Shown: positions 34,769 through 56,884 of the stretch, piece after piece
Layout of the letters: each line of letters begins with the position of its first letter
Numbering within the stretch: the first letter of the stretch is position 1
Notes under the pieces: model-generated
What the model was told of the DNA's origin: nothing
Databases searched by the model: none
Seen by the model: the letters and a program-made list of their open reading frames with translations, nothing else
From: Corynebacterium sphenisci DSM 44792
GTDB lineage: Bacteria > Actinomycetota > Actinomycetes > Mycobacteriales > Mycobacteriaceae
Reading direction: 5' to 3'
Assembly (NCBI RefSeq): GCF_001941505.1
Contig: NZ_CP009248.1
Coordinates: 310,001 to 374,000, forward strand
Length of the DNA: 64,000 nucleotides
Made by a program: the position numbers and the translations under genes

Positions 34769-34787
34769 TAGGGCAAGCCTCACCTCG
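34769..34787. promoter_or_regulatory. Possible iron box between SIP and lysine hydroxylase genes
   Basis: TAGGGCAAGCCTCACCTCG matches 12 of 19 DtxR consensus positions, with a good right half. It lies in the divergent promoter region between 34684 (-) and 34794 (+). Confidence 0.4.
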
Positions 34788-34793
34788 GATAGG

Positions 34794-36179
34794 GTGACCA
34801 GGGTGACCGATAGCGCCGCCGGGTCCGCCCCGGCCGACCCCGCCACCACCACCGCCGCCGACGGGGATCCCGTCGACCTGCTCGTCATCGGCGCCGGACC
34901 GAAGGCGGTGGCGCTGGCCGCCCGCGCCGCCGCGCTGCGCGCCACGGGCCTGCCCGCGCCCCGGATCCGGATCCTGGAGGCCCGCTCCGTCGGCGCGCAC
35001 TGGGAGCGCCCCGGGGGCTGGACCAACGGCAACCTGCTGCTGGGCACCGCCCCGGAGAAGGACGTCGGCTTCCCCTACGCCACCGCCGGCGCCGGGGCGG
35101 CCTCCGCCGCGGTGGACGGGCACCTGGCGCAGTGGAGCTGGACCCGGTTCCTCATCGCCGCCGGGGACTACGCCGCCTGGGTGGACCGCGGCCGGCCCGC
35201 CCCCACCCACGCCACCTGGGCCCGCTACCTGCGCTGGGTCGCCGACCGGGCCGGGGCGCAGGTGCGCATCGGCCGGGTGATCCGCGCCGGGGTGGCCGAA
35301 TCGGGGGCGGGCTGGGCGGTCACCGCCCGCGGCGCCGACGGGGTGGAGCGGGTGCACCGGGCCCGGGCGCTGCTGCCCACCGGACCCGGCCCGGCGTCCA
35401 CCGTGATCGCGATGGCGCCCCGGGTGTACTCCCAGGCCTCCTTCTGGTCGGTGACCCACATGGAGCCGGTCTTCGGCGGCGCCGAGGTCGCCGTGATCGG
35501 CAGCGGCGAGGGGTCGGCGAACACGGTGGCGCAGCTGCTGCGGGTCGGCGCCGCCGGGGTGACCGTGATCTCCCCGGACCCGGCGATCTTCACCCGCGGG
35601 GAGAACCGCTTCGAGAACCGCCTGTACTCCGAGCCGGAGCGGTGGACCGCGCTGTCCGCGGCGCACCGCCGGGACATCCTGCGCCGCACCGACCGGGGGG
35701 TGTACTCCGCGGCGATGATGACCGCCATCGAATCCGATCTGCGCTTCGACCACGTCACCGGATGGGTGCGCACCGCGGTGCCGGAACCGGACGGGGTGCA
35801 GCTGATGGTCGCCCGGGCCCGCCCCGGCGAGGGCGGCGGACCGGTCGCGGAGGACTCCGTGATCCGGGTGGACTACGTCGTCGACGCCCGCGGCAACCCG
35901 CCGCTGTGGTTCCTGCGCTACTTCACCCCCGCCGCCCGGGAGGCCCTCGCCGACGCCGCCGGCGGAACCTCCCCCGAGGCGGTGGAGCAGGTCATCGACC
36001 GGGATCTCTCCGTCGCCGGGATGCGGCCCCGGCTGTTCCTGCCCGCCCTCGCCGGATTCCGGCAGGGCCCCGGATTCGCCAACCTCAGCTGCCTGGGCGC
36101 CCTGTCCGACCGGGTGCTCACCGGACTGGCCGCCGAGGCCGAGACCGCGCCGGCCCTCGGGGCGGGGGCGCCGGCATGA
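34794..36179 (+). CDS. mbtG: L-lysine N6-hydroxylase, MbtG-like
   Basis: Predicted product is 461 residues, a flavin-dependent N-hydroxylating monooxygenase expected to make N6-hydroxylysine for a hydroxamate. The FAD motif is VIGAGPKAVALAA (residues ~22-34), the NADPH motif VIGSGEGSANTVAQ (~232-245), and IFTRGENRFENRLYSEPE and TAPEKDVGFPYA are typical of MbtG-type enzymes. Start is GTG 34794 or GTG 34803; both give the same domain. It overlaps entA by 4 bp (ATGA), so hydroxamate and catecholate genes are co-transcribed. Ornithine as substrate cannot be excluded. Confidence 0.82.
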   Translation: MTRVTDSAAGSAPADPATTTAADGDPVDLLVIGAGPKAVALAARAAALRATGLPAPRIRILEARSVGAHWERPGGWTNGNLLLGTAPEKDVGFPYATAGAGAASAAVDGHLAQWSWTRFLIAAGDYAAWVDRGRPAPTHATWARYLRWVADRAGAQVRIGRVIRAGVAESGAGWAVTARGADGVERVHRARALLPTGPGPASTVIAMAPRVYSQASFWSVTHMEPVFGGAEVAVIGSGEGSANTVAQLLRVGAAGVTVISPDPAIFTRGENRFENRLYSEPERWTALSAAHRRDILRRTDRGVYSAAMMTAIESDLRFDHVTGWVRTAVPEPDGVQLMVARARPGEGGGPVAEDSVIRVDYVVDARGNPPLWFLRYFTPAAREALADAAGGTSPEAVEQVIDRDLSVAGMRPRLFLPALAGFRQGPGFANLSCLGALSDRVLTGLAAEAETAPALGAGAPA

Positions 36180-36937
36180 GCGCCACCCTGATCACCGGCG
36201 CCGCCTCCGGGATCGGCCGGGCCACCGCCCTGGCCCTGATCGGACGGCACCGGCTGCTGCTGCTGGACCGCGACGCCGCCGCCGTGGCGCGGCTCGCCGA
36301 CGAGGCCCCGATCGCCGCCGCGATCGAGGCCGGGGCCTGCCGCACCGCCGTCGCCGACGTCGCCGAACCCGGTGCCGTGGCCGCCGCCCTGGACGCCGCC
36401 GGGGAGCTCGGCGGGTTCACCGGGGCGGTGCACTGCGCCGGGGTGCTCGCCCTGGGCGGGCTCGCCGAGGCGGACCCGGCGGAGCTGGCCCGCGCCCTGG
36501 CGGTCAACGCCGGCGGGGTCGCGGCCACCCTGGCCGCCCTGCACCCGCACCTGGCCGCCGCCGGCGGCGGCTCGGTGGTGGTGATCGGCTCCAACGCCGG
36601 GAGCACCCCCCGGGTCGGGATGGGCGCCTACAGCGCCTCCAAGGCGGCGGCGCATATGCTCGCCCGGGTCGCCGCCCTGGAATGGGGCGCCGAGGGCATC
36701 CGGGTCAACGTGGTGGCCCCCGGGGCCACCGACACCCCCATGCAGGCCGCCTTCGGCGGCCCGGACGCGGCGGCCGCGGCGGTGGCCGGGGACCCCGCCC
36801 GGTACCGGCTGGGCATCCCGCTGGGCCGGATCGCCGACCCCGGCGACATCGCCGCCGCCGCGGCCTTCCTGCTCTCCGACGCCGCCCGCCAGATCACCGG
36901 CCAGGTGCTGGTCGCCGACGGGGGGTGCACCCCATGA
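36176..36937 (+). CDS. entA: 2,3-dihydro-2,3-dihydroxybenzoate dehydrogenase
   Basis: Predicted product is 253 residues, a short-chain dehydrogenase. NAD motif TGAASGIGRA at the N-terminus, and the catalytic Ser region VVIGSNAGSTPR with YSASKAA (YxxxK). Length and placement directly before entE support EntA/DhbA, which oxidises dihydro-DHB to 2,3-dihydroxybenzoate. Overlaps both neighbours by 4 bp. Confidence 0.85.
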   Translation: MSATLITGAASGIGRATALALIGRHRLLLLDRDAAAVARLADEAPIAAAIEAGACRTAVADVAEPGAVAAALDAAGELGGFTGAVHCAGVLALGGLAEADPAELARALAVNAGGVAATLAALHPHLAAAGGGSVVVIGSNAGSTPRVGMGAYSASKAAAHMLARVAALEWGAEGIRVNVVAPGATDTPMQAAFGGPDAAAAAVAGDPARYRLGIPLGRIADPGDIAAAAAFLLSDAARQITGQVLVADGGCTP

Positions 36938-38622
36938 GCCCGCATCCGCTGCTCGACGGGCCCGCCTACCCGGAGGAGTTCGCGGCCCGCTACCGCGCCG
37001 CCGGGTACTGGACCGGGGACGTCTTCGCCGATTTCGCCGACCGGGGCGCGCACGTGCACGGCGCCGCCCCCGCGGTGTCCGGGGTGGACCACGCCGGGGC
37101 GCCGGTGACCTGGAGCCACGCCGAGCTCGCCGAGGCCGCCGCGGCGACCGGGGCGGGCCTGGCCCGGGCCGGGATCGGCGCCGGGGACGCGGTGATCGTG
37201 CAGCTGCCGAACATCGTGGAGTACGTGGCGGTGGTGCTCGGGCTGTTCCGGATCGGGGCGATCCCGGTGTTCGCGCTGCCCGCGCACCGGCGCAGCGAGC
37301 TCACCCAGTTCCGCCGGATCGCCCGGGCCCGCGGCTACGTCACCGCCGGCCGGGTCGCCGGCTGCGACCACCGGGGCCTCGCCGACGAGCTCATCGCGGA
37401 CGCCCGCGCCGCCGGGGCGGAGGCCCCGGTGACCGTGGTCGTCGACGCCGACGGCGGCGGGCACGCCCGGCTCGCGGACCTGGCGGACCTCGCCGACCCG
37501 GCGGCGCGGGCCGCCGCCGCGGCCGCCGCCGGGCCCCCGGCGCCGGCGGACCCGGAGGACCTGGCGCTCATCCAGCTCTCCGGGGGCACCACCGGCACCC
37601 CGAAGCTCATCCCGCGCACCCACGCCGCCTACCACTACTCGATCCGCGCCTCGGCGGGGATCTGCGGCTGCGGGCCCGGCACCCGGATGCTGGCGGTGCT
37701 GCCCGCGGCGCACAATTTCACGATGAGCTCCCCGGGCATCCTCGGGGTGCTCTGGGCCGGCGGGGAGGTGATCCTGGCCCCCACGACCTCCCCGCGGCGC
37801 TGCCTGGAGCTGGTGGAGCGGCACCGGGTCACCGACGTGGCCCTGGTGCCGCCGCTGGCGATGGCCTGGATCGCCGCCCTGGACGGCTCCGGGGCGGACG
37901 TGTCCAGCCTGCGGGTGATCCAGGTCGGCGGGGCGAAGTTCACCGAATCCGCCGCCCGCCGGCTCACCGCCGCCTTCGGCTGCCGGCTGCAGCAGGTCTT
38001 CGGCATGGCCGAGGGGCTGGTGAACTACACCCGGGACACCGATCCCCCGGAGCTGGCGCTGACCACCCAGGGCCGGCCGATCTCCGCCGCCGACGAGATC
38101 CGGATCCTCGACGAGGACGGCGCCGAGGTCGCCGAGGGGGAGCCGGGGCGGCTGACCACCCGCGGGCCGTACACCATCCGCGGCTACCTCGGCGGGGCGG
38201 ACCCGGGCTCCTTCGACGAGGAGGGCTTCTACGCCAGCGGGGACGTGGTGCGCCGGCTGCCCGGCGGCCACCTGGTGGTCGAGGGCCGGGTGAAGGACCA
38301 GGTCAACCGGGGCGGGGAGAAGTTCGCCGCCGAGGAGGTGGAGAACCACCTGATCGCCCATCCGGGGATCCTCGACGCGGTGGTGGTCGCGGTGCCGGAC
38401 CCGGGCCTGGGCGAGAAGTCCTGCGCGGTGCTGGTCGCCGACCGGGAGCTGGACCCCGCCGAGGTGCGCGCCTTCGTGCGCGCCCGCGGGGTGGCCGCCT
38501 ACAAGGTGCCGGACCGGGTGGTGCAGCGCGAGGCGCTGCCCACCACCGGGGTGGGCAAGATCTCCCGCCGGGAGCTGCGCGAGCGCCTCGCCGCGGAACT
38601 CGGCGGGGCCGGCGCCGGCTGA
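36934..38622 (+). CDS. entE: 2,3-dihydroxybenzoate-AMP ligase
   Basis: Predicted product is 562 residues, family-typical. The adenylation core motif LIQLSGGTTGTPKLIPRTHA and the motif around GMAEGLVNYTR match DHB/salicylate-activating enzymes (EntE/DhbE/MbtA). The A10 lysine is in TGVGKISRREL (Lys 542). It should activate DHB and load it on the aryl carrier protein encoded at 43431-43661. Last gene of the + strand operon; salicylate is a less likely substrate because entA, entB and entC are present. Confidence 0.88.
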   Translation: MSPHPLLDGPAYPEEFAARYRAAGYWTGDVFADFADRGAHVHGAAPAVSGVDHAGAPVTWSHAELAEAAAATGAGLARAGIGAGDAVIVQLPNIVEYVAVVLGLFRIGAIPVFALPAHRRSELTQFRRIARARGYVTAGRVAGCDHRGLADELIADARAAGAEAPVTVVVDADGGGHARLADLADLADPAARAAAAAAAGPPAPADPEDLALIQLSGGTTGTPKLIPRTHAAYHYSIRASAGICGCGPGTRMLAVLPAAHNFTMSSPGILGVLWAGGEVILAPTTSPRRCLELVERHRVTDVALVPPLAMAWIAALDGSGADVSSLRVIQVGGAKFTESAARRLTAAFGCRLQQVFGMAEGLVNYTRDTDPPELALTTQGRPISAADEIRILDEDGAEVAEGEPGRLTTRGPYTIRGYLGGADPGSFDEEGFYASGDVVRRLPGGHLVVEGRVKDQVNRGGEKFAAEEVENHLIAHPGILDAVVVAVPDPGLGEKSCAVLVADRELDPAEVRAFVRARGVAAYKVPDRVVQREALPTTGVGKISRRELRERLAAELGGAGAG

Positions 38623-38632
38623 GCCGGCGGGC

Positions 38633-39478
38633 TCAGCGCGCCGGGGGCGCGGTGGGCACCACCAGCGGCCCGCCGGTCTGCGGATCCTCCACCACCACCG
38701 CGGAGAGCCGGAATACCTCGGCGAGCAGCTCCGCGGTGATCACCTCCTCCGGGGCGCCGACCGCGGCGACCGCGCCCTCGCCGAGCACCACCAGATGATC
38801 CGAGTAGCGGATCGCCAGGTTCAGATCGTGCAGCACCATCGCCACCGTGGTGCCGGTGCGCCCGGGCAGGCCCGCGACCAGGTTGAGGATGTCGATCGCG
38901 TGCGCGATGTCCAGGTAGGTGGTCGGCTCGTCGAGCAGCAGCACCTCCGCGTCCTGGGCCAGGGCCATGGCCAGCCAGGCGCGCTGCCGCTGCCCCCCGG
39001 ACAGCGAGTCCAGCGGCCGGTCCGCGTAACCGGCGACGTTGGTCAGCTCCAGGGCCCGGCCCACCCGGCCGGCGTCGTCGGCGGTCCACTGGCGCAGCCA
39101 GGACTGGTGCGGATGCCGGCCCAGGGCCACCAGATCGCCGACCAGCATCCCCTCCGGGGCGGTGGGCATCTGCGGCAGCACGGCGATATGCCGGGCCAGC
39201 TCCCGCCGCCGGTAGCCGCCGATCGGCCGGCCGGCCACCGCCACCTCCCCGGACATCGGATCCAGCAGCCCGGCCAGGCAGCGCAGCAGGGTGGATTTGC
39301 CGCACCCGTTGGGGCCGATGACCGAGGTCACCGCCCCGGCCGGGATGGTCACGTCCAGGCCGGCGAGCACCGGCGCCCCGCCGTAGCCGGCGTGCAGTCC
39401 GGCGGCGGCCAGCGCCGGGGCGGCCCCGGGGGACCGTTCCGCGGTAGTGCGCTCGGTGCGGGAATCGGTGCCGGTCAT
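38633..39478 (-). CDS. fepC: Ferric siderophore ABC importer ATPase
   Basis: Predicted product is 281 residues. Walker A VIGPNGCGKSTLLRCLAGLL, signature LSGGQRQRAWLAMALAQD and Walker B VLLLDEPTTYLD are all intact and typical of FepC/FecE ATPases. It converges on entE with a 10-bp gap and is translationally coupled to fepG (ATGA). Confidence 0.9.
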   Translation of the reverse strand: MTGTDSRTERTTAERSPGAAPALAAAGLHAGYGGAPVLAGLDVTIPAGAVTSVIGPNGCGKSTLLRCLAGLLDPMSGEVAVAGRPIGGYRRRELARHIAVLPQMPTAPEGMLVGDLVALGRHPHQSWLRQWTADDAGRVGRALELTNVAGYADRPLDSLSGGQRQRAWLAMALAQDAEVLLLDEPTTYLDIAHAIDILNLVAGLPGRTGTTVAMVLHDLNLAIRYSDHLVVLGEGAVAAVGAPEEVITAELLAEVFRLSAVVVEDPQTGGPLVVPTAPPAR

Positions 39479-40551
39479 CCGGGCCTCCTGTTGAGTTTCA
39501 CGAGCAGGGCGATGAGGAACACGCCGCCGAAGGCGGCGGTGACCAGGCCCACCGGCAGCTCCGCGGGCAGCACCACCCGGGAGAACAGGTCCGCGCCGGT
39601 GAGCAGCACCGCCCCGGTGAGCGCGGAGGCGGTCAGCGGCGGGGTGGCCGCCCCGGCCAGGCGCAGCGCCAGCTGCGGGGCGACGAAGGAGACGAAGCCG
39701 ATCGGCCCGGCGGCGGCCACCGCCAGCGCGGCCAGCGCGATCGCCACGCCGAGCAGCGCCCGCCGGGAGCGCAGCAGATCCGCGCCGAGCGCGGCGGCGG
39801 CGTCATCGGTCAGCGGCAGCGGGCGCAGCCGGTGCGAGAGCAGCGGGATCGCCGGGGCGAGCAGCGCCACGATGAGCAGCGCGGGCACGGTGCGCGACCA
39901 GGTGGCCCCGGCCAGGGAGCCGGTGAGCCAGAACTGGGCCTGGGCGGCGTCGCGGATCTCCGCGGAGGTGATCAGCCACTGGATGTAGGCCTGGAACAGG
40001 GCGGTGACGATCACCCCGGTGAGCACCAGCCGGAACGGGTCGCTGCCGCGCCGCCAGGCCAGCAGGTACACCAGCACCGTGGTCGCCGCCGCCCCGGCCA
40101 GCGCCGCCAGCGGCACCCCGAACCCGCCGAGGGTGGCGGCGACCCCGCCGAAGCCGGCGAAGCCGATCACGGTCACCGCGAAGGCCGACGCCCCCGAGGT
40201 GATGCCCAGCACATCCGGGCTGGCCAGCGGGTTGCGGGCGATGGACTGGGTGATCGCCCCGGCCACGCCGAGGGCCATGCCCACGGCCAGCCCGGCCAGG
40301 GCCCGCGGCATCCGCCAGCCGAAGATGATGTGGAACTCCACCGGGGTGGCCCGGACGAAGAGGATGCGCAGCACCTCCCCGGGGCCCAGGGGGTAGTCGC
40401 CCAGGGCCAGGGAGGCGACGAAGAGGGCGAAGGCCGCCGCGGCCAGGGCCAGGCAGGCCAGCAGGTTGCGGGGCCGCCGCGGCACCCGGAAGGGGCCCAC
40501 CGCCACCGGGGCGGACAGCGCCGCGGGGTCGCGGCGGGTCGGGGCGCTCAC
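39475..40551 (-). CDS. fepG: Ferric siderophore ABC importer permease
   Basis: Predicted product is 358 residues, a FecCD-type permease with the usual segments WRMPRALAGLAVGMALGVAG, IARNPLASPDVLGITSGAS and GPIGFVSFVAPQLALRLAG. Coupled by 4-bp overlaps to fepD upstream and fepC downstream. Forms a heterodimeric channel with the fepD product. Confidence 0.87.
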   Translation of the reverse strand: MSAPTRRDPAALSAPVAVGPFRVPRRPRNLLACLALAAAAFALFVASLALGDYPLGPGEVLRILFVRATPVEFHIIFGWRMPRALAGLAVGMALGVAGAITQSIARNPLASPDVLGITSGASAFAVTVIGFAGFGGVAATLGGFGVPLAALAGAAATTVLVYLLAWRRGSDPFRLVLTGVIVTALFQAYIQWLITSAEIRDAAQAQFWLTGSLAGATWSRTVPALLIVALLAPAIPLLSHRLRPLPLTDDAAAALGADLLRSRRALLGVAIALAALAVAAAGPIGFVSFVAPQLALRLAGAATPPLTASALTGAVLLTGADLFSRVVLPAELPVGLVTAAFGGVFLIALLVKLNRRPG

Positions 40552-41639
40552 AGCCGCACCACCTTGTCGCGCTGCAGCAGGTACAGGAAGAACGGCGCGC
40601 CGACCAGGGCGAGCACGATGCCCACCTGCAGCTCCCCGGAGGGCAGCACCAGCCGGCCGACCACGTCCGCGCCCAGGGTCAGGGTCGCCCCGGCCAGGGC
40701 CGCATACGGCAGCAGCCAGCGGTGATCCGGGCCGGTGACGGGCCGCACCAGATGCGGCACCACCAGGCCGACGAAGCCGATCGGGCCGGCCGCGGCGGTC
40801 GCCGCCCCCGCCAGGATCGCGATCAGCCCCATCCCGATCGCCCGGGCCCGGGCCACGTCGATGCCCAGCGCCCCGGCGACGTCATCGCCCAGGTTCAGCG
40901 CGTTGAGGGTGGGCGCGGTGGCGAAGGCCGCGGCGATGCCGACCAGGGCGAAGGGCAGCGCGGCGAAGAACACCGACAGGTCGCGGCCGGTGAGCGAGCC
41001 CACCGTCCAGAAGCGCATCCGGTCCAGGTTCGCCTCGCTGGTGAGCACCAGGGCGGTGGTGCAGGCGGTGAGCACCGCGGTCAGCGCCGCCCCGGCGATG
41101 ATCAGCATCAGCGGGTTGCTCCGGCCGGCGCCCACCGAGGTCAACCCGAACACCAGGGCGGTGGCCGCGATCGCGCCGGCGAAGGCGCTCACCGCGGTGG
41201 TCATCGGGGCGACCACCCCGAAGAAGGCGAAGCCCACCACCACCGCCAGCGCCGCACCGGCGGAGATCCCGATGATGCCGGGATCGGCCAGCGGATTGCG
41301 GGTGTGGCCCTGGATGAGCCCCCCGGCCACGCCCAGGCAGGAGCCGACGACCAGGCCGACCAGGGTGCGCGGGAAGCGCAGCCCGGCGAGCACCCGCACC
41401 GTCGGATCCGCCGGGTCCGCCGCCGCGCCGGTCACCGCCGCCCACACCTCGGGCAGCGCGCGGGCCACCTCCGGCAGCGGGATGTCCCGGGCGCCGAAGG
41501 CCATCGAGGCCGCGGCGACCGCGGCGGTGGCCGCCAGCAGCAGCACCAGCCCGACCAGGCGGCGGCCGCGGGCCGCGCCGGCGGGCGGGGCCCCGGCGGC
41601 GGCCGGCTCGGCCGGGGCGGGGGCGGCGGGGGAGCTCAT
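40548..41639 (-). CDS. fepD: Ferric siderophore ABC importer permease
   Basis: Predicted product is 363 residues, FecCD family. LRFPRTLVGLVVGSCLGVAG, HTRNPLADPGIIGISAGAAL and GPIGFVGLVVPHLVRPVTG are characteristic. Start at 41639 (MSSPAAPAPAEP, with a Pro/Ala-rich cytosolic N-terminus) is chosen; longer in-frame extension overlaps the divergent gene. First gene of the fepDGC operon; no binding protein is included, the likely one being at 51633-52610. Confidence 0.87.
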   Translation of the reverse strand: MSSPAAPAPAEPAAAGAPPAGAARGRRLVGLVLLLAATAAVAAASMAFGARDIPLPEVARALPEVWAAVTGAAADPADPTVRVLAGLRFPRTLVGLVVGSCLGVAGGLIQGHTRNPLADPGIIGISAGAALAVVVGFAFFGVVAPMTTAVSAFAGAIAATALVFGLTSVGAGRSNPLMLIIAGAALTAVLTACTTALVLTSEANLDRMRFWTVGSLTGRDLSVFFAALPFALVGIAAAFATAPTLNALNLGDDVAGALGIDVARARAIGMGLIAILAGAATAAAGPIGFVGLVVPHLVRPVTGPDHRWLLPYAALAGATLTLGADVVGRLVLPSGELQVGIVLALVGAPFFLYLLQRDKVVRL

Positions 41640-41698
41640 CGGGCGGGCGGATCCTTCGGGTGGACGGCGGGGGTCGGGGGTGCGGAATCGGTGGAACC

Positions 41699-41717
41699 GG
41701 GGGCTACGATAGCCAAC
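41699..41717. promoter_or_regulatory. Weak iron-box-like palindrome
   Basis: The inverted repeat GGCTA-CGA-TAGCC sits in the fepD / adenylation-gene divergent region. Aligned to the DtxR box it keeps the inner GG.TA / TA.CC bases but only 11 of 19 positions overall. Overlapping TACGAT could be a -10 element for the + strand gene. Confidence 0.3.
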
Positions 41718-41805
41718 GCACGCATGCTGAGGGAAGCCAAACGCCAGATCCCCGGCGGCGGCGCCGCCCGGCGCCGCCCCGACGACCCCGAGGAGAGCCC
41801 CGCCG

Positions 41806-49700: not shown

Positions 49701-50588
49701 GGCGGCGACTCCCTGGCCGCGATGCGGCTGCTCGGCCGGCTGCGGCCGAGGCTGCCGGAGCTCACCGTGGTGCAGATCGTCGAGGGCGGCTCCCCCCGGG
49801 AGATCGCCGCCCGGCTCGGCGGCGATGGCGCCGGCGCCCGGCTGCTCGCCCCGCTGCGCGGCGGCTTCGGCGCGCCCCTGGTGTGCGTGCACCCCGCCGG
49901 CGGGGTGGCGCTGCCCTTCACCCCGCTGGCCGCGACACTGCCCTGGCCCACCCCGGTGGCCGGGATCTCGCTGCCCGCCCCCCGGCCGGAGGTCCCCGAC
50001 CTGGCGGGCCTGGCCGAGCGCTACGTCGAGGCGCTGCGCCGGGAACTGCCCGAGGGGCCCTACCGGCTGCTCGGCTACTCCTTCGGCGGCCAGGTGGCCC
50101 ACGCCATGGCCGCCCGGCTGCAGGCCGCCGGCGCCGAGGTGGATTTCCTCGGGGTGCTCGACGCCTACCCCTGCGGGCACGGGCCGGGGGTGGGCGAACC
50201 CGATGCGGAGCTGCGCGAGCGGCTGGCCGCCGCGGAGGCCGGCGAACTGCCCGCCGCGGAGATCGCCGCGGTGGCCGGGATCCCGCCCGCGGCGGCGGCC
50301 CGGGCGGCCGCCGCCGGGGTGGACATCGCCGGCAACCTGCTCTACTGCGGGCGGCTGCTGCGCACCGCGACCCCGGTGCGCTACGAGGGGGAGGTCGCCG
50401 TGGTGGCGGCCACCCGGCCCTCCCCGGGCGCCCCGGCCGCGGACGGCTGGGACCCCATCGCCGCCTGGCGGGGGGAGCCCGGGATCACCGCGGTGCACGC
50501 GACCCGGCTGGACCTCGACCACGCCGGACTGGTCGGGGAGGACGGCGCCGCCCAGGTCGCCGCCTTCCTCGCCGGGCTGCGGCCCTAG
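43800..50588 (+). CDS. Siderophore NRPS, C-A-T-(degenerate E/C)-C-T-TE
   Basis: Predicted product is 2262 residues. C1 has HHVAVDG at residues 151-157. A has TSGSTGTPKG around 607-616, an Asp at 660 equivalent to the amino-group-binding residue, and LYGPTE at 751-756. T1 has GGGDSI with Ser 1006. A region at ~1035-1440 looks like an epimerisation or condensation domain, but its core reads HPAALDA (1181-1187), so the second, catalytic His of HHxxxDG is Pro. C2 has HHLLTDG (1582-1588). T2 has GGDSL with Ser 1971. TE has GYSFGG with Ser 2094, Asp 2121 and His 2241. The second module has no A domain and needs one in trans. C1 presumably accepts DHB from the aryl carrier. Confidence 0.9.
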   Translation: MAQHPEHTVRPDAVALPLTAAQQAIVDACGLAGHPGHYIVGEVLELTGAGIDPDRVAAAVAATAAEAEVLRLRLRERDGAWTQEVAPEPPPAPEPVDLRAAPDPRALAAAVVDAERAGLAEATADLAGVPLSRYRLLRLAEDELWCVQLYHHVAVDGYSAHLLTRRIAEHHRALVAGTAPRPPRFAPIADLVAADRAYAAGAEHAADRRFWVGRLAAAPVAAGREDQVGDGAAAMTTVRTLDPAARGRLTELARAHRVGWTDLVLAAHAALLRRITGQPEVTIAMPMLARTTPAALRTPLMLVNMLPLTVPVDPEAPLVELAAAIRAELAAIRPHSRFPGSALARAAGRPEAAALLHGMGANVKAFDARFDFGGPAARLRNVAGGPPEDLVLVVAPAPDGSVDLAFEHDPRNTPPELAAGRLDRIRAILDGACADPAAPVGALGAGTGARWRAAAPGKPAGSPAPSAAERIDALAGGDPGRAALVVEAADGSGAELRMSAAELLAAVRALARRVRAGAPRGAVVAVTARRSAEQVIALLACLHAGRTAVVADPGGGARTDAVLAAADPALVLDDAALAGARHPDPAAAGPRDWPDPDPEEIAYLMFTSGSTGTPKGVRVPHRALAALLAGHAAGLHPEVLAALPAGTAPAVGHTAPLHFDAAIDQLAWLFAGARVHLLPEALLLAPAACAGRLAAAGIGILDATPSLLAPLLELGLLERCPDLAAILCGGEPMPQDLWDRLAAAGVAAWNLYGPTEATVDALAARVRPGPVHLGEPVPGMTAAAVDLDGAEVPPGEWGELVLAGPQIAAGYLGADAAAFGVLETAGGAAAPAYRTGDRVRREPGRGWVFGGRLDDQLEVRGHRVEPGEVEALLRGAPGVADAAAAADAAGGATRLVAAVRPADPADAAPAAAAALARRVTADLARHAPAWLVPGGIAVVDRLPVTAQGKTDRRAVAALVAAAAGDPAAGPRDEAGRFLAAEIGAVLGVDPDRVRLDLDFISGGGDSIAALRVAAACARAGRRLDAAELLGPAPLAELAARLPGPGAAAGADPGPGAAGPLGRVPADPARVGAGGCWTTLVEPDRPVPARALAAAAGDLVASYGALRAIAAGPAGAPGELLVPRTPAAAAERIGAGCVDQAPAGAGPGELLALARAGVDPGRGRMWRLARAADGRRIAVAAHPAALDAESFAMLLRRLRARLVAGAAVDPVDARPTWRGAAVAAAGAAPRRPDPAAGGDGGGAGAVAAVELPPAVAAAAAAGGPIAEAYRCDPRACCAAAARLAGAHPVQVAVRPPWAAGVLGALAAPRVLPAAEPAPTARADDPDRARRVLLDTKERLLAGPGDAGPAAVTVEVIDEPVAEAPGPAGMARITVVLPGPGAARPTGRVLVAGLDPEPARALAEAVARSLGVLAAAARLCPGASPADLRGLLDQDRIDAHEARLGPLADAFGTTPMQRALLARRTAAGPGGGYVVAAGIDLHGPVDPGRLRAAFAALMRRHPVLRAGFDPEAPGGPLHLIPRRAAPPWRTLDLRDLPEEAGLAAAAAVQRDYAARDIDVTAPPLLAATLVLLPGERSRLVLGNHHLLTDGWSTPVLLRDLLELYHGRDPQPARPADFADHVARIAARDAAADRARWSRLLADLPGGTLLSVAAPPEAGEAPAALADLDWPADAPDRAEVAARIAEAAPAGTATVLPVPLPAATAAALPERARELGLTPATLVQAAWAVALAGALGLRDVVFGVTLAGRDPALPGVEATVGMFITTLPMRLRVDPAATLAELAADAAGMGRELAGLQATALPEAEAAGGVGPLFDSVVVHDNHPVADGDPDADPAAESPRVGRVLTSGRAEVPLAVVAPPGEDAGLGVAHEPELISPRVAVALAGRLARALTALVADPAAPTGPLLGDPEVATPGAAPEPAPAAPVAEAAPTADAAAGEPDRGAIADTIAEAMAGLLGRPVAAGDNFFTIGGDSLAAMRLLGRLRPRLPELTVVQIVEGGSPREIAARLGGDGAGARLLAPLRGGFGAPLVCVHPAGGVALPFTPLAATLPWPTPVAGISLPAPRPEVPDLAGLAERYVEALRRELPEGPYRLLGYSFGGQVAHAMAARLQAAGAEVDFLGVLDAYPCGHGPGVGEPDAELRERLAAAEAGELPAAEIAAVAGIPPAAAARAAAAGVDIAGNLLYCGRLLRTATPVRYEGEVAVVAATRPSPGAPAADGWDPIAAWRGEPGITAVHATRLDLDHAGLVGEDGAAQVAAFLAGLRP

Positions 50589-50620: not shown

Positions 50621-51334
50621 TCAGCCCCCGAGGGGTGCGGGGGCCTCCCCGGGGGTGGCCTCGAGGAGCAGAGCCGGGCGCACCTCCGGGATCTCCCCCG
50701 GGTCCTTGCGCAGGATCAGCAGGTGGAAGGTGCGCCCGGGCAGCCGGTGCCAGCCGCCGTCGAAGCTGCCCGCGCGCAGGGCCACCTTCCGGGCCGCCCG
50801 GTTGCGCCAGTCCGGGTCGAAGACCACCCGCTCGAACTCGGGCTCCATCTCCATCGCCTGGGTCAGCCCGGTGGCCAGCATCAGCCCCGCCCGGCCATGG
50901 CCGGTGGCGGCCGGATCCCCGAAGCCGATGTGCACCCCGATGTCATGCGGGCGGGCCCGGTAGGTCAGGCCCACCACATCCCGGCCCGGCCGGTACAGCT
51001 CCAGGTAGGCGGCCGGTTCACCGGCGATGGTGAGCAGCACCGGCACCGAGTAGGTGCCCGCGTTCTGCGCCCGGATCCGCCGGGCCCACCAGGATTCCGG
51101 GTTGGCGAACTCCCAGGCCCGCGCCAGATGCGGGCGGTTCATCCACTCCGCGACGGTGGCGATATGCGGGCTGTCGTCCTCGATCCGGGCCAGGTGGTAT
51201 TCCCCGGCCAGCGGGGGCACCGGGGGAGCCCCGGCGGCGCGGAACGCCGCGTCGGCGTCGGTGCGCTCCCGGGGCAGGTCCGGGTTGGCGAACTCCCCGG
51301 GCAGTGCGGCGTACGGTCCGGCGGCCTGCGGCAT
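50621..51334 (-). CDS. Siderophore lysine N-acyltransferase (IucB/MbtK-like GNAT)
   Basis: Predicted product is 237 residues. The segments VAEWMNRPHLARAWEF, PAAYLELYRPGRDVVG, DIGVHIGFGDP and VVFDPDWRNRAARKVALRAG follow the IucB/RhbD/MbtK family, GNAT enzymes that acylate the N6-hydroxyamino group of lysine-derived siderophore building blocks. Together with the MbtG-like hydroxylase it would create a hydroxamate iron ligand. ATG 51334 has a GGAGAAAGG ribosome binding site. Acetyl is the likely donor by analogy with IucB; a longer acyl group is possible. Confidence 0.82.
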   Translation of the reverse strand: MPQAAGPYAALPGEFANPDLPRERTDADAAFRAAGAPPVPPLAGEYHLARIEDDSPHIATVAEWMNRPHLARAWEFANPESWWARRIRAQNAGTYSVPVLLTIAGEPAAYLELYRPGRDVVGLTYRARPHDIGVHIGFGDPAATGHGRAGLMLATGLTQAMEMEPEFERVVFDPDWRNRAARKVALRAGSFDGGWHRLPGRTFHLLILRKDPGEIPEVRPALLLEATPGEAPAPLGG

Positions 51335-51632: not shown

Positions 51633-52610
51633 ATGACGGGATCCCGTCACATCCGCCGCTTCAGCACGGCCCTGCTCATGATGATCGCGGCGCTGCTCGC
51701 GCTCCCGGCCTGCTCGGTGGTCGACAACGTCACCGGCGGCGGGGGCGAGGAGATCACCGTCACCCACGCCTGGGGCACCGACCAGTACCCGTACAAGCCG
51801 AAGAAGGTCGTCGCCATCGGCACCGGGGTGGACAACCTGCTCGCCCTGGGGATCACCCCGGACGCGGTGGTCACCCGCCCGGACGACGAATCCGCGGAGT
51901 GGAAGAAGGACAAGCTCGCCGACGTGCCCCGGATCGACTCCGCGGACGTCACCGCGGTGCCGGTGGAGGAGATCGCGGATCTGGAGCCGGACATCATCGT
52001 CGGCGACTCCTACCGGGTCTCCCAGCCCATCTACGACATGATGAAGCCGATCGCCCCGGTGCTCGGCGGCATGGGCGTGGACGGGGAGGGCCTGGGCTGG
52101 AAGCCGCAGCTGGTCGCCCTGGGCCGGATCTTCGGCGAGGAGCGCAAGGCCATGGAGATCATCGAGGCCGATACCGCGGCCTTCGAGGAGGTCCAGCGGC
52201 GGCTGCCCGGGTTGGCGGACAAGACCGCCCTGGTGGCCCAGCACCGCGGCGGGCAGTTCTACGCCATCGCCGACCCGGCGAACCCCTCCAACGACTTCTT
52301 CGCGGATCTGGGCATGGGCCTGCCGCGGAAGTTCGCCGAAGGCGAGCTGGAGGCCACCCTCGGCCGGGTGGCGATCTCCCCGGAGAACATCGAGGACCTC
52401 ACCGCCGACCTGCTGGTGCTCTTCGCCGCGGACGGGATGGACGCGGTGCGCAAGGTCCCCGGCTACGACGAGCTGCCGGAGGTCGCCCGCGGCACCGCCG
52501 TGGAGCACAACGAGCCGATTTCCGCGGCGCTGAACGTGCCCTCGCCGCTGAACCGGCGCTGGGCCCTGGAGAAGCTCACCCCCGTCCTGGAGAAGGTGGC
52601 CAACACCTGA
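51633..52610 (+). CDS. Ferric siderophore-binding lipoprotein
   Basis: Predicted product is 325 residues. A lipoprotein signal peptide ends in the lipobox ALPAC (Cys 27). The FepB/FhuD-like fold follows: TVTHAWGTDQYPYKPKKVVA, VDNLLALGITPDAVVT, IADLEPDIIVGDSYRVSQPI and DLLVLFAADGMDAVRKVPGY. It should capture the ferric siderophore at the outer face of the membrane for the FepDGC importer. ATG 51633 follows AGGAAGG; longer in-frame extensions lack a signal sequence. It has its own promoter region with iron-box-like sites. Confidence 0.88.
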   Translation: MTGSRHIRRFSTALLMMIAALLALPACSVVDNVTGGGGEEITVTHAWGTDQYPYKPKKVVAIGTGVDNLLALGITPDAVVTRPDDESAEWKKDKLADVPRIDSADVTAVPVEEIADLEPDIIVGDSYRVSQPIYDMMKPIAPVLGGMGVDGEGLGWKPQLVALGRIFGEERKAMEIIEADTAAFEEVQRRLPGLADKTALVAQHRGGQFYAIADPANPSNDFFADLGMGLPRKFAEGELEATLGRVAISPENIEDLTADLLVLFAADGMDAVRKVPGYDELPEVARGTAVEHNEPISAALNVPSPLNRRWALEKLTPVLEKVANT

Positions 52611-52740
52611 CCGGGCCGCCCGCCGGCATCCGGCGCGGCCACCGCATGACCCAGACCACCGAAAGCCCCCGGGACGCCCCGGGCGCCATGAACCGACCAG
52701 GCCGGCCCGCGGGGCCGGCCGCGCAAGGGAGCAGCACCGA

Positions 52741-53601
52741 ATGACCGACAAGGGCTTTGACGAGGACTACGACCCCGCCTACGGGGGCGACTTCGCCCCG
52801 GCGGAGGAGGACTACCCCGAGGAGGGCACGCGCTCGGGCGAGGGCGTGCACTGGCCGACGGTGCTCGCCGCCGCCGGCGCCTCGCTGCTGGTCGCCGCGC
52901 TGATCACCACCCTCGGGGTGGTGTGGGCGCTGCGCAGCGGCGATTCGGAGGACAAGGACGCCACGATCGCGATGTACGAGCAGCTGCTCGCCGCGGACGC
53001 CAAGCCGGTCTCCTCCGGCTCCGGATCGACCACGGCCGCCGACCACGGCACCCGATCCGGGGAGTCGCGCACCGCGGGCCGCGCCGGCTCCGGGGCCACC
53101 CGCTCCGGGGACGCGGGCCGCGCCGGCTCCGGGGCCACCCTGGACGGGGTCGACGCCGCGGAGGATCCGGATGCGGTGGACGACGGCGGCGACGCCGGCT
53201 ACGTCGACGACGGCGGCTCCGCCGATGACGGAGCGAATCAGGCGCTCGCACCGGACTGGGGGCCGGTGGAGGTCGACGACAACATGCACCTGCTGATGAA
53301 CCAGGGCACCGCCGACGCCACCATCGCCGAATACCTGGAGGCCGGCGCCGGCGGGGTGCCCACGGTCCGCGACATCCAGGCCCGCTTCGAGGCCGCCAAG
53401 CTGTTCTACAGCTGGGAGCTGGACTACGACAGCGTCTACATCGACGGTGACGCGCTCTACGCGGACCTGACCCTGACCCTGTCCGGGATGGGCACCAAGC
53501 CCTTCCCCATCTACTACCTCGACATCGACGCCGGCTGGCGCCTGTCCAACGAGAGCCTCTGCGACCTGGCCGAGCAGGCCCGCGTGGAATGCCGCACCTA
53601 G
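52741..53601 (+). CDS. Single-pass membrane protein with low-complexity linker, unknown function
   Basis: Predicted product is 286 residues. An acidic cytosolic N-terminus (~40 residues) precedes one membrane helix (LAAAGASLLVAALITTLGVV), a Ser/Gly/Thr- then Asp/Gly-rich linker (~85-170) with a tandem 13-residue repeat, and a compact C-terminal domain (VRDIQARFEAAKLFYSWELD, YADLTLTLSG, IYYLDIDAGWRLSN) predicted outside. The topology recalls Mce-associated or lipoprotein-like envelope proteins, but I do not recognise the family. Lies 130 bp after the binding-protein gene and 27 bp before a second membrane protein gene. Confidence 0.7.
   Translation: MTDKGFDEDYDPAYGGDFAPAEEDYPEEGTRSGEGVHWPTVLAAAGASLLVAALITTLGVVWALRSGDSEDKDATIAMYEQLLAADAKPVSSGSGSTTAADHGTRSGESRTAGRAGSGATRSGDAGRAGSGATLDGVDAAEDPDAVDDGGDAGYVDDGGSADDGANQALAPDWGPVEVDDNMHLLMNQGTADATIAEYLEAGAGGVPTVRDIQARFEAAKLFYSWELDYDSVYIDGDALYADLTLTLSGMGTKPFPIYYLDIDAGWRLSNESLCDLAEQARVECRT
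53073..53150 (+). repeat. Tandem 39-bp repeat within the membrane protein gene
   Basis: Two 39-bp units begin with an identical 28-bp core (53073-53100 and 53112-53139) and encode AGRAGSGAT-type 13-residue repeats in the linker. Confidence 0.75.
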
Positions 53602-53628
53602 GCGACCCGTCAACCAAGGGAGAATGAG

Positions 53629-54663
53629 ATGACCGAGCACGAAGCGAGCGAGACCCGCCGGGAGGCCCGCCGCCGCCGGCGCGCGGAGCGCCGCGCCGCA
53701 CGCGAGGAGGCCCGCGGGGCCCGCGGCAGCCGGAAGTCCGGGATCGCCTGGGCCGCGGTGCTGATGTCCGTCGGCGTCGCCGCGGTGGTCTCCGCCATGG
53801 TGGTCACCGTCGGCGCCGTCGGGGTGGCGGCGAAGGGGCCGGGTGAGCCCCGGCCCCGCGCGGTGGCCCTGTGGGAGCAGCGGATGAACGCCACCGAGGC
53901 TTCCGGGGGCGGCGCCGCCCAGGCCGCCCGGGGCCGCGGCGGCAGCCGGGAGGGCGCCCGCGCGGGCTCCTCCTCGCGCACCCGCTCGGGTGGAGGAGCC
54001 CAGCGGAAATCCGCGGCCCCGCGCACGCGCGGCTCCGCGGCCGCGCCGAAGAAGCGGGGTTCGGCGACCCGGCCCGGCGGCACCTCCGGCAGCCGGCGGC
54101 CCGGCTCCCCGGCCCGGCCCCCGGCCGATGGCGCCGGCGGCCCGGACCAGCCCGGCGGAAACGCCGGTCTGCCGGATCTCGCCGCCGCCATCGACCTCAT
54201 CTCCGGGCTGATCGGCTCCATCGGCGGGGGCAAGCCCGGCGGCGACGGCGGCCCCGACGGCGGCCCCGGCGGCATGCCCGCCGTGCCCGGCCTGCCCGGC
54301 AAGCCCGGTGCCGGCGGCGCCCCGGGCGGCGCCCCCGGCGGGGGCGCCCCCGACCCGGAGGGGCTGCTGCCCGGGATGAACGCGCTGCCCGATTTCGAGA
54401 CCATCGCCCGCTGCATCGGCGATCTCGGGGTGCCGATCGCCCCGGGCGGCGGCGAGGGCGGCCCCGGCCTGCCGGGGCTGCCCGCCCCCGGCGAGGGCAA
54501 GGGCCCCGGCGGCCTGCTGCCGGTGTCCCTGGTGCTCGACCAGGACGCCCTGGCCGGCGCCGGGATGCTCCAGGAGCTCATCGCCGATCTCGTCGCCACC
54601 GGCGGCATCACCCAGGGGACCATCGACCGGCTGCACGGCCGCTCCCTGGCCCTCTGCGGCTGA
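53629..54663 (+). CDS. Membrane-anchored Gly/Pro-rich protein, unknown function
   Basis: Predicted product is 344 residues. A very basic cytosolic N-terminus (ETRREARRRRRAERRAARE) precedes one membrane helix (~residues 38-65). The outside part begins with a basic Ser/Arg/Ala linker and continues with collagen-like Gly-Pro-rich stretches (GLPGKPGAGGAPGGAPGG) separated by short hydrophobic helices (LAAAIDLISGLIGSIGG, LPDFETIARCIGDLG). A Shine-Dalgarno GGGAG precedes ATG 53629. Possibly an envelope or surface protein linked to the preceding gene; no enzymatic motif. Confidence 0.7.
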   Translation: MTEHEASETRREARRRRRAERRAAREEARGARGSRKSGIAWAAVLMSVGVAAVVSAMVVTVGAVGVAAKGPGEPRPRAVALWEQRMNATEASGGGAAQAARGRGGSREGARAGSSSRTRSGGGAQRKSAAPRTRGSAAAPKKRGSATRPGGTSGSRRPGSPARPPADGAGGPDQPGGNAGLPDLAAAIDLISGLIGSIGGGKPGGDGGPDGGPGGMPAVPGLPGKPGAGGAPGGAPGGGAPDPEGLLPGMNALPDFETIARCIGDLGVPIAPGGGEGGPGLPGLPAPGEGKGPGGLLPVSLVLDQDALAGAGMLQELIADLVATGGITQGTIDRLHGRSLALCG

Positions 54664-54676
54664 TCCCGCCGGCGCC

Positions 54677-54720
54677 GACGGCGCCCGCCGCACCCGGCAT
54701 CGGGTGCCGCGGGCGCCGTC
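54677..54720. terminator. Bidirectional terminator hairpin
   Basis: Inverted repeat GACGGCGCCCGC-CG-CACCCG / CGGGTG-CC-GCGGGCGCCGTC with a GCAT loop, in the 77-bp gap between convergent genes. Confidence 0.8.
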
Positions 54721-54740
54721 CGCGTGCGCCGGGGGCGGGC

Positions 54741-55829
54741 CTAGCCGGGCAGGCCCAGCGCGGCGCGCACCGGGCCCAGCTTCGCCTCGGTCTCGGCGAC
54801 CTCCTCGGCCGGATCCGAACCGGCCACGATCCCGCCGCCGGCGTGCGCGATGACCTCCCGGCCGCGCAGCCGCGCGGAGCGGATCACCACCCGCCAGCGG
54901 CCGTCGCCGGAGCCGTCCGACCAGCCCACCGCCCCGGTGTAGAAGCCCCGGTCCGGCTCCTCGGCGGCGAGCACCGCGCGCACCGCCTCGGTGGGGTGCC
55001 CGCACACCGCCGGGGTGGGGTGCAGCGCGGCGGCCAGGGCCAGCGCCGGGGTGCGCCGATCCCGCAGGGTGCCGGTGATCCGGGTGCCCAGATGCCAGGT
55101 GTGCGAGGTGCGGGTCAGCGCCGGGGCGGGCACCTCCAGGCGGGTGCACCAGGGCCGCAGCACCCGGGCGATCTCGTCGACCACCCACTGGTGCTCGGCG
55201 ATGTTCTTCGCCGAGGCGAGCAGCCCCCGCGCCGCAGCCTCGTCCGCCACCGGGTCCGGCTGCCGGGGCACGGTGCCGGCCAGGGGATGGGAGACCACCA
55301 GCGCACCGCGTTTGCCGAGCAGCAGCTCCGGGCTGGAGCCGACCAGGTGGGCGGGCTCGGCGGAGTCGTCCAGGCGCAGCAGGTGCCCGTCCCCGGTGGC
55401 GGAGGCGGCGAGGAAACGGTCCAGCAGCGCCACCGGGTCCGCCGGGGCGGCCAGCCGGGCCCGCAGCGTCCGGGAGAGCACGATCTTGTCGAAGCGGCCC
55501 CGGTCGATGTCCGCCAGCGCGGCGCGCACCCGTCCGGCGTGCGCCGCCGGATCCGGGTGCACCTCCTCGGCCACCACCGCCGGCCAGACCCCGGCCCGGG
55601 CCGGGGCCCGGGTGCCGGAGCGGCGGAACCGGGCGGGCCGGAACAGCCGGGGCGGCTCCGCGGCGTGGAAGGGCAGGGCCCCGACCACCATCGCCTCCGG
55701 ATCCGCGGCCAGCGCCGCCAACGCCCCGGGCACCTCGTCGAACCGGCCGGCCACCCCATGGCCGGTGACCACCCCGGCGGCGTCGGCGAGCACGAAGCTC
55801 GGCGCCGAGGCGGGTGCCGCGGCGCTCAT
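54741..55829 (-). CDS. entC: Isochorismate synthase
   Basis: Predicted product is 362 residues of the chorismate-binding family. Motifs FDKIVLSRTL, VGSSPELLLGKRG, SHPLAGTVPR, AKNIAEHQWVVDEIARVLRP, LHPTPAVCGHP and GFYTGAVGW are diagnostic of EntC/DhbC-type enzymes. It converts chorismate to isochorismate, the first step to DHB. The start at 55829 overlaps the entB stop (ATGA), so entB and entC are one operon. Confidence 0.9.
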   Translation of the reverse strand: MSAAAPASAPSFVLADAAGVVTGHGVAGRFDEVPGALAALAADPEAMVVGALPFHAAEPPRLFRPARFRRSGTRAPARAGVWPAVVAEEVHPDPAAHAGRVRAALADIDRGRFDKIVLSRTLRARLAAPADPVALLDRFLAASATGDGHLLRLDDSAEPAHLVGSSPELLLGKRGALVVSHPLAGTVPRQPDPVADEAAARGLLASAKNIAEHQWVVDEIARVLRPWCTRLEVPAPALTRTSHTWHLGTRITGTLRDRRTPALALAAALHPTPAVCGHPTEAVRAVLAAEEPDRGFYTGAVGWSDGSGDGRWRVVIRSARLRGREVIAHAGGGIVAGSDPAEEVAETEAKLGPVRAALGLPG

Positions 55830-56470
55830 CGGGCGGCGCCGGGCGCGGCGAGGGCGGCCAGCGCCTCCGCGGTGTCGAGCACCCGGCCGCAGCGCCGGGC
55901 CACCCAGTCCACGGTGGTCCGGTGCTCCGCGGCGGAGAAGTCCGCGATCGCGTCGCGCACCAGGAAGGCCCGGATGTCGTTCATGAACGCGTCCGCGGCG
56001 GTCATCTGGCAGCCCATGTGCCCGTACACCCCGGTGATGAGCAGCTGATCCCGGCCGGCGAAGCGCAGCGCGGGCAGCAGGTCCGTGCGGGTGAGCGCGG
56101 AGTAGCGCCATTTCACGATCACCTCATGGCCCGGCCCCGGGGCCAGCTCGGCGATGATCGCGGCATCGCGCTCGGTCTGCAGCCCGTCGCCCCAGAACTC
56201 GGCGAGCAGCCCCCGCCGGGCGGGGGCCTGCGCCGGCGGCTGCGCCGAGTAGTACACCGGCGCCCCGGCGGCGTCCGCGGCGTCGACCAGCGCCCGGATA
56301 TTCGGCACCGTCGTGGCCATCGGCTCCGCGGCCCGGTCGTAGGGGTCGATGAAGTAGTTCTGCATATCGTGCACGAGCAGCGCGGCGCGGCCCGGATCCG
56401 GGGTCCAGGGCACCGCGGGCGGCGCTTCGGCCTCGGGGATGGGGTAGGGCGGGATCGGCGGAATCGCCAT
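55826..56470 (-). CDS. entB: Isochorismatase, single domain without aryl carrier
   Basis: Predicted product is 214 residues. Conserved segments AALLVHDMQNYFIDPYD, VYYSAQPPAQ, VIVKWRYSALTRTDL and ITGVYGHMGCQMTAADAFMN identify the isochorismatase half of EntB. EntB and DhbB are about 285-310 residues because they carry a C-terminal aryl carrier domain; here the protein ends at VDWVARRCGRVLDTAEALAA with no DSV carrier motif. The start ATG 56470 follows GAAAGAG; upstream open sequence overlaps the iron box and is rejected. Confidence 0.9.
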   Translation of the reverse strand: MAIPPIPPYPIPEAEAPPAVPWTPDPGRAALLVHDMQNYFIDPYDRAAEPMATTVPNIRALVDAADAAGAPVYYSAQPPAQAPARRGLLAEFWGDGLQTERDAAIIAELAPGPGHEVIVKWRYSALTRTDLLPALRFAGRDQLLITGVYGHMGCQMTAADAFMNDIRAFLVRDAIADFSAAEHRTTVDWVARRCGRVLDTAEALAALAAPGAAR

Positions 56471-56884
56471 GGGCGGGTCTCTTTCCTCAGCGGCCGGGAC
56501 GGCCCCGACCCAGGCAATGCTATTTAGCGCAGGCTCACCTGGCAAGCCCGCCCCCGGCGGGGTGCCGCGGGGCGGCCCCGGCGGGGATTTTGACTGGTGG
56601 GGACGACCTGCTAGCCTCGAACGGTCCGTTCCGCACGGACGATCGGTCACGCATGCCCCGGGCATGGGGCCGGCCGGCGCGCGGGGCGGCCAACCACACG
56701 TCAACTTTGCTGAAGGCCCCCCGCCTCACAGCGTCCCGCTCGTACAGGGTGGCGAGCCGCCGCGGCTACTGAACCGCGGCGGCGCCGAGCAGCCCGCAAA
56801 TCGGGTGGATCACGCCAGCCGCGCCGGTGACGGCGCGCGAGGTGGGCCGGGAACCGCGGCGAGAAAGGAAGACGGTCACACACC
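56471..56884. promoter_or_regulatory. Divergent region: entBC iron-regulated promoter and rpsH promoter
   Basis: The 414-bp gap holds the entB iron box (56524-56542) on the left. A + strand promoter is TTGACT at 56590-56595 with TAGCCT at 56612-56617 (16-bp spacer), giving the second spc segment its own start and a leader of about 260 nt. No gene seen; open frames in the leader lack support. Confidence 0.55.
56524..56542. promoter_or_regulatory. DtxR/IdeR-type iron box upstream of entBC
   Basis: TTAGCGCAGGCTCACCTGG matches 14 of 19 positions of the IdeR-style consensus TTAGGTTAGGCTCACCTAA, with an intact right half. It lies 53 bp upstream of the entB start, where bound repressor would stop DHB synthesis when iron is plentiful. 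Confidence 0.6.

Follow-up and report, generated by a model that had tools for sequence, protein, structure and literature searches.

The 64,000-nucleotide window analysed here (Corynebacterium sphenisci DSM 44792, contig NZ_CP009248.1, positions 310,001 to 374,000) contains a siderophore gene cluster that varies the heterobactin scheme: its hydroxamate would derive from lysine, one adenylation (A) domain probably acts in trans and an epimerisation (E) domain is dead. Many corynebacteria share it. We read it, with moderate confidence, as an iron-regulated nonribosomal peptide synthetase (NRPS) locus. Its predicted product is 2,3-dihydroxybenzoate (DHB) joined to a basic residue and then to N6-acyl-N6-hydroxylysine, a tetradentate catecholate-hydroxamate.

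An earlier note on this DNA had listed entC, entB, entA, entE, an aryl carrier protein (ArCP), a hydroxylase, an acyltransferase, a stand-alone A domain, a 2262-residue NRPS and uptake genes. All are present with open reading frames and find support in profile comparisons with Pfam, NCBIfam and the PDB; start codons are our choice. The host genome is a single contig of 2,594,799 bases with 75% GC.

Biosynthetic genes and substrate codes

The hydroxamate half comprises two enzymes. The first is an L-lysine N6-hydroxylase of the NbtG/MbtG type (34794-36179, + strand; PF13434), which matches the L-Lys monooxygenase 4d7e with an E value of 4e-106, versus 2e-4 for the ornithine hydroxylase 3s5w. 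The second is a GNAT N-acyltransferase of the MbtK/IucB type (50621-51334, - strand; PF13523, E 5.7e-32), with matches to Rv1347c (1yk3, E 5.9e-33) and MbtK (9nnq, E 1.2e-23). Both calls agree with the earlier note. Enzymes of the MbtK and IucB types place their acyl group on N6 of lysine or hydroxylysine. Hydroxyornithine as the hydroxamate source is ruled out by the lysine-type similarity of the hydroxylase; no DMEN-type A domain occurs among the codes read in the window cluster.

The DHB starter set is complete. It consists of the 2,3-dihydro-DHB dehydrogenase gene entA (36176-36937, +; short-chain dehydrogenase/reductase, PF13561/PF00106), the DHB-AMP ligase gene entE (36934-38622, +; PF00501/PF13193), the isochorismate synthase gene entC (54741-55829, -; DhbC-like, above the TIGR00543 cut-off, PF00425), the isochorismatase gene entB without an ArCP domain (55826-56470, -; PF00857, E 1.1e-34) and a stand-alone ArCP of 76 amino acids (43431-43661, -; PF00550). 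The EntE code, TMPAQGVVNK, we take to be DHB- rather than salicylate-like. Overlaps of four bases, stop to start, link hydroxylase to entA, entA to entE and also entB to entC; by the first two, the hydroxamate and catechol halves are probably co-expressed.

The NRPS (43800-50588, +) has the order C-A-T-E*-C-T-TE, with condensation (C), carrier (T) and thioesterase (TE) domains and a decayed E domain, E* (PF00668 twice, PF00501, PF00550 twice, PF00975). It holds the only Condensation matches in the whole genome. The HHxxxDG motif is kept in C1 and C2, the GGDS serine in T1 and T2, and GxSxG in TE. Its one A domain in cis is A1 (45150-46679, +); the second module, with its carrier and thioesterase at 49629-50579 (+; PF00550/PF00975), has none. 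A stand-alone A domain (41806-43419, +; above the TIGR01733 cut-off) probably loads this second module in trans.

E* (46935-48143, +) reads HPAALDAESF where HHxxxDG is expected. Taken alone it has no significant match to E-domain profiles (HMM E 0.017); the group of window-type E* domains gives an hhalign probability of 73.5 over 66 columns. We assign it as a decayed epimerisation domain from the family profile and from its fold, one common to the entire condensation/epimerisation superfamily. Across the genus this domain, which sits between active T and C domains, shows degrees of decay: some versions still read HHxxxDA, others have lost the motif.

Ten-residue codes, at the GrsA positions, were read by alignment onto the stand-alone A domain, and some are labelled by type (Gly, hydroxyornithine, DVWN). 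A1 has the code DADDLGLVDK and the stand-alone A domain DVGSIGLMDK. A search with NRPS residues 1-1050 gave 2770 homologues, 120 of them listed, and a FastTree tree of A domains includes those of 14 of the 120. In this tree A1 groups with the first-module A domains of P0003, P0005, P0028, P0036 and P0060 (support 0.999). The NRPSs of this clade have the code order basic - Gly type - hydroxyornithine type, or basic - DVWN type. A1 is thus predicted from code and clade to select a basic residue (Orn, Arg or Lys). Arginine as a firm call was withdrawn. Heterobactin B has a published m/z of 438.197 (PMC7824959), and the value computed for DHB-Orn-Gly-cyclo-hydroxyOrn, 438.198, matches it; the Arg or Lys form does not. 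As this mass fits Orn, we name the A1 substrate only as a basic residue.

In the same tree the stand-alone A domains separate from both mycobactin hydroxylysine types as a clade of their own (0.999). Mycobacterial loci beside MbtG have the codes DV[AG]HPGF[IL]NK and DAQDAGCVEK, which we take, from gene order, to be MbtE and MbtF; nocardial loci have DAQDAGCVEK or DALHPGHVCK. A search with the stand-alone domain gave 1305 relatives at E 1e-60, with 120 listed. In the first 52 of these (P0121-P0172) the code is DV[AG]S[IL]GLMDK in 50 and DVGALGLMDK in one, while P0170 is unrelated; P0175, among the remaining listed relatives, has the code as well. Wherever an organism is named in the first 52 it is Corynebacterium, save one Mycobacteriaceae metagenome-assembled genome (P0126).

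Genes, domains, codes and conservation are direct observations, and the following steps, with the order of acylation and the structure, are predicted from them. EntC, EntB and EntA would convert chorismate to DHB, which EntE would load onto the free-standing ArCP. C1 would couple DHB to the basic residue picked by A1 and held on T1; with E* dead, this residue should remain L. Lysine would be hydroxylated at N6 by the NbtG-type enzyme and acylated there by the MbtK-type acyltransferase, and the stand-alone A domain would charge the resulting N6-acyl-N6-hydroxylysine onto T2 in trans. C2 would add it to the chain and TE would release the product. The ferric complex would enter through a binding lipoprotein (Peripla_BP_2, about 51633-52610, +; PF01497, E 6.3e-19), two FecCD permeases (39475-40551, -; PF01032, E 1.8e-80; and 40548-41822, -; PF01032, E 1.9e-83) and a FecE/FepC-type ATPase (38633-39478, -; best NCBIfam relatives PRK11231/PRK10253, under their equivalog cut-offs). 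A SIP reductase would then release the iron.

Distribution and rival readings

Among 201 sampled Corynebacterium genomes, 33 have a hydroxylase match, that of G010 being weak (E 5e-4). With G010 dropped, we inspected the surroundings of 31 loci besides the window; a C. mastitidis locus (L037) was added but left uncounted. The full set of C1, A1, C2, stand-alone A domain, hydroxylase and acyltransferase occurs at 21 of the 31, so that with the window 22 of the 201 genomes, about one in nine sampled species, have the full architecture. Two of these clusters have their T-TE end beyond the fetched stretch (G075, G133), and three have the stand-alone A domain in two pieces (G013, G076, G122). Identity between the window and the 21 others is 38-50% in C1 and 37-48% in A1. 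Of the 31 clusters, 25 have the stand-alone A type together with the hydroxylase; the code of this A domain, read in 16 of the 25, agrees except at the last position in G076, where the frame is split.

Every one of the 22 full-NRPS genomes has an EntB homologue, and so have 35 of the 40 tested; EntE lies elsewhere in the genome in an ocular group (G062, G063, G082, G128) and in G182. A salicylate starter is rejected: salicylate synthase (TIGR03494) is over cut-off in none of 40 genomes, the control being one of 14 named genomes over cut-off. The genome of the window, G000, has no TIGR03494 match over cut-off, and weaker matches to other chorismate enzymes exist there.

The remaining loci vary. 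G079 has its hydroxylase in pieces with a stop, and the loci of G039 and G124 end at contig edges. G149 and G196 are mycobactin-like by their codes, yet have no salicylate synthase over cut-off. G174 (L118/L119/L171) is mixed: the stand-alone A type is fused inside an NRPS, next to an MbtF-type DAQDAGCVEK code, EntE, EntC and an acyltransferase; EntB was not found in this genome. A plasmid search with the hydroxylase returned three records, none covering 80% of the query.

Four genomes have a stripped-down set of hydroxylase, stand-alone A domain, T-TE protein and SIP fusion, without an NRPS (no C domain): G061 (L163/L164, end to end 17595-23660), G119 (L169, 11629-17666), G159 (L165) and G040 (L177). 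Their T-TE proteins keep GGHS and GYSSGG and are 33-36% identical to the window T2-TE. No acyltransferase of these four genomes is over the Pfam cut-off or matches that of the window at E 1e-3. In G119 and G040 the searches for EntB (E <= 1e-3) and EntE (E <= 1e-60) both came back empty. G061 and G159 have EntB, beside a Ser-type C-A-T-TE NRPS with the code DVWHISLIDK; the window cluster has three A domains, none with a Ser/Thr-type code. The stripped-down set may be a self-sufficient hydroxamate pathway.

This set bears on an alternative that we hold to be possible, though clearly less probable than the acylated product. The assembly line would be the same, with the terminal N6-hydroxylysine unacylated; TE would form a seven-membered N-hydroxy-lactam or join units via N6-OH, and the acyltransferase would act on another amine (for example the hydroxylysine or basic residue of A1) or later. 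Mycobactin ends in just such a lactam of hydroxylysine, and the mass fit has heterobactin ending in cyclised hydroxyornithine. The same stand-alone A code type stands beside a related T-TE in the four genomes where no acyltransferase was found. Against this, wherever C1, A1 and C2 occur together outside the window (21 clusters), an acyltransferase lies alongside, as if required, and the acylation of lysine or hydroxylysine N6 is what its enzyme types are known for.

A further-reaching proposal, which we regard as rather unlikely, is that the core of the family is the C-domain-free line of hydroxylase, A domain and T-TE, with TE coupling N6-hydroxylysine (N6-OH to carboxyl, as oligomer or lactam) alone in G119 and G040. 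In the window this core would then follow, by fusion, a heterobactin-like DHB-basic module whose E domain is dead, and the acyltransferase would be an addition.

It is improbable that two separate compounds are made, a DHB-basic catecholate by the NRPS and an independent hydroxylysine compound by hydroxylase, stand-alone A domain and a carrier. The four stripped-down sets, two of them in the genomes where EntB and EntE were not found, speak for such a division; in the window, however, T-TE occurs just once, as part of the DHB-dependent NRPS, whose T2 has no A domain, and hydroxylase, entA and entE overlap.

More improbable still is that the locus is cryptic or silent and yields no functional product, a reading to which the decayed E domain and the lack of an MbtH match in the window genome might point. 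MbtH was found in one of 14 genomes tested (G040) and is missing also in nine of the nine tested among the 21 full-cluster genomes, so its absence is the rule here. The other catalytic motifs checked and the frames are intact, C1 and A1 are conserved in those 21 genomes, and another record, perhaps of the same species, holds an NRPS 96% identical over residues 1-1050. A mycobactin/nocobactin-type siderophore, suggested by the families of hydroxylase and acyltransferase, is mostly refuted and very improbable, with a DHB cassette and no salicylate synthase over cut-off, no polyketide synthase (PKS) or Cy domain among the island genes scanned and A codes unlike those taken as MbtE and MbtF.

Several observations nevertheless weigh against the acylated DHB-basic-hydroxylysine product. 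The occurrence of the stand-alone A code in four genomes without a detected acyltransferase favours N6-hydroxylysine over its acylated form as the substrate; in G040, however, a mycobactin-like cluster likewise comes without a detected acyltransferase, so the search may overlook divergent enzymes. As the stand-alone A domain lies outside the mycobactin clades, its substrate is deduced only from the company it keeps. In the tree the A1 group lies nearest to the MbtF (hydroxylysine) type, at an unsupported node (0.442), which leaves room for hydroxylysine at A1. C2 resembles the PvdL C domain that comes after an E domain, an odd partner for a dead one. Finally, the window acyltransferase shares 56-58% identity with its counterparts in G149, G196 and G079 and only 31-40% with the others; it was perhaps swapped in, and may use another acyl donor.

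Regulation, genomic setting and neighbouring genes

A DtxR-like iron box (34769-34787) lies between the SIP fusion gene and the hydroxylase gene; its first base is also where the range given by the earlier note begins. It scores 14/19 against the DtxR consensus TWAGGTWAGSCTWACCTWA, a score reached by none of 200 shuffles. The whole window has four sites scoring at least 14, against 0.3 expected; the sites that precede the genes of the binding protein, the stand-alone A domain and EntB score no higher than 13. Upstream of the hydroxylase in 14 clusters we took the best site within about 400 bases, and in 13 of the 14 its score is reached by at most 10 of 200 shuffles (62 of 200 in G182). The upstream sites of G030 and G094 are poor-looking boxes.

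Another DtxR-like site, at 26609 (15/19), lies upstream of genes for an alpha/beta hydrolase (26677-27489) and a GDSL lipase (27776-28825), which are possibly iron-regulated, judging from this site. Further sites are found at 60163 and 62549, with genes of the neocarzinostatin family and of FecCD type. There, at 59659-62507, a gene for a small neocarzinostatin-family protein (PF00960, E 1.8e-11) stands beside two more FecCD permease genes.

The island is flanked by the ribosomal protein genes for L5 (25943-26512) and S8 (from 56885), both identified by eye from their translations. Five clusters have siderophore genes within the ribosomal-protein block: the window, at L5/S8, and G028, G094, G061 and G119, at S17 to L14/L24. 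In G061 and G119 it is the stripped-down four-gene set, with one small open reading frame, that lies between the S17 and L14 genes. This location is not general, as the clusters of C. oculi and C. mastitidis are not so placed. No tRNA and no RNA family over threshold was found in the window.

The gene of the SIP fusion (32837-34669, -; FAD_binding_9, PF08021/PF04954) lies just outside the range given by the earlier note, divergent from the hydroxylase gene and clearly linked to the cluster. The C-terminal part of the protein (32837-33859, about the last 340 residues) has no Pfam hit. Its AlphaFold2 model (mean pLDDT 84.8) matches the O-methyltransferases DnrK, TnmH and NcsB1 with TM scores of about 0.6-0.76. 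In relatives the SIP and methyltransferase-fold parts are again neighbours, and the fusion is seen beside many of these clusters. The glycine motif of the second half is GPGAxVYA, or GAAAxxYA in the stripped-down sets; next to the usual S-adenosylmethionine motif it looks altered, so the domain may not methylate.

Two exporter genes are possibly linked to the cluster: an ABC-2 type permease (30205-31635, -, start uncertain; PF01061/PF12698) and a DrrA-like ATPase (31784-32752, -; PF00005). The ATPase shares 48-49% identity with its counterparts near the G149 and G196 clusters. With the acyltransferase, this suggests that pieces of two siderophore lineages may have gone into the window cluster; ATPases of 43-45% identity near the full clusters of G013, G076 and G122 count against such a mosaic origin.

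Between the binding protein and entC, two consecutive genes (52741-54663) have no Pfam match and an N-terminal membrane-spanning look. Relatives of the first (39-40% identity) adjoin the hydroxylase in G149 and G196.

Relation to known siderophores

The earlier note had drawn an analogy with heterobactin, and this is largely right. The DHB starter, the predicted terminal hydroxamate and nearby uptake genes are shared with the heterobactin systems of Rhodococcus erythropolis and of Nocardia (P0003, P0004, P0005 and P0007, so named from code order). The Nocardia proteins, among the 120 listed homologues, read DADDVGLVDK - DILQ-GVVWK - DMENIGLINK, where we take the second code to be of the Gly type and the third of the hydroxyornithine type, in heterobactin order; their first module falls in the same basic-residue A clade as that of the window, and its code differs from DADDLGLVDK at one position only. 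A Gly module in cis and hydroxyornithine as hydroxamate source are absent from the window cluster. Heterobactin-like NRPSs carry the Gly and hydroxyornithine modules in cis and their E domain keeps HHxxxDG, whereas the window has a lysine-type hydroxylase, a GNAT acyltransferase, an A domain in trans and a decayed E domain.

With mycobactin and nocobactin the window shares the MbtG/NbtG-type hydroxylase and the MbtK-type acyltransferase; it differs in using DHB rather than salicylate, in having no PKS seen, and in the codes and order of its A domains. Bacillibactin and enterobactin have a Ser/Thr A domain feeding a trilactone-forming TE, in contrast to the window. Twenty-one of the 120 listed homologues, from various actinomycetes, have the codes DSDD[VI]G[LMI]VDK and then DV[WF]N[VM]GA[IV]NK, and are presumably of the griseobactin type (DHB-Arg-Thr). 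Their first A domain falls in the A1 clade and two that were examined (P0036, P0060) have the order C-A-T-E-C; unlike the window, they have the second A domain in cis.

In the earlier note the locus was apparently uncharacterised. This stands in that we found no characterised product in the full-text literature searched; it falls short in that the cluster recurs in 21 further genomes and that a 2026 paper, going by DHB genes, an NRPS and mbtG in C. kroppenstedtii subsp. demodicis, already predicts that a 'heterobactin-type' siderophore is made there (PMC13244258). The section with this prediction guesses a glutamine residue and gives no domain architecture, acyltransferase, codes, family survey or metabolite (PMC13244258). 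A C. kroppenstedtii protein, P0155, is among the listed relatives of the stand-alone A domain.

C. variabile DSM 44702 has entA, entB, entC, entE and NRPS genes, called catechol siderophore genes (PMC3219685). It shares the ent and NRPS genes with the window; the description is of a catechol only, and the word 'hydroxylase' has no occurrence in the main text of that paper (PMC3219685). A table in a 2025 review places C. variabile cluster 23 next to madurastatin (PMC12096840). Skin corynebacteria have a conserved predicted NRPS siderophore (PMC10210951), C. diphtheriae has corynebactin (PMC3326035), and fewer than 20% of Rhodococcus and Corynebacterium siderophore clusters are stated to exceed 80% similarity to MIBiG entries (PMC13293324). 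In the full-text literature searched, with MIBiG outside that search, we found no report of an isolated DHB-hydroxylysine product.

The conserved, apparently uncharacterised DHB-basic-hydroxylysine family is a clear target for isolation. Few corynebacterial siderophores are known in structure. With a single conserved code, the probably trans-acting A domain presents a new substrate assignment for testing, and the decayed E domain amid active domains is a natural experiment in the loss of a stereochemical step by an NRPS. Should the stripped-down A/T-TE version prove active, it would add a new way of making hydroxamates. If it is indeed the core of the family, the window cluster would be a catechol-capped variant of that new NRPS route.

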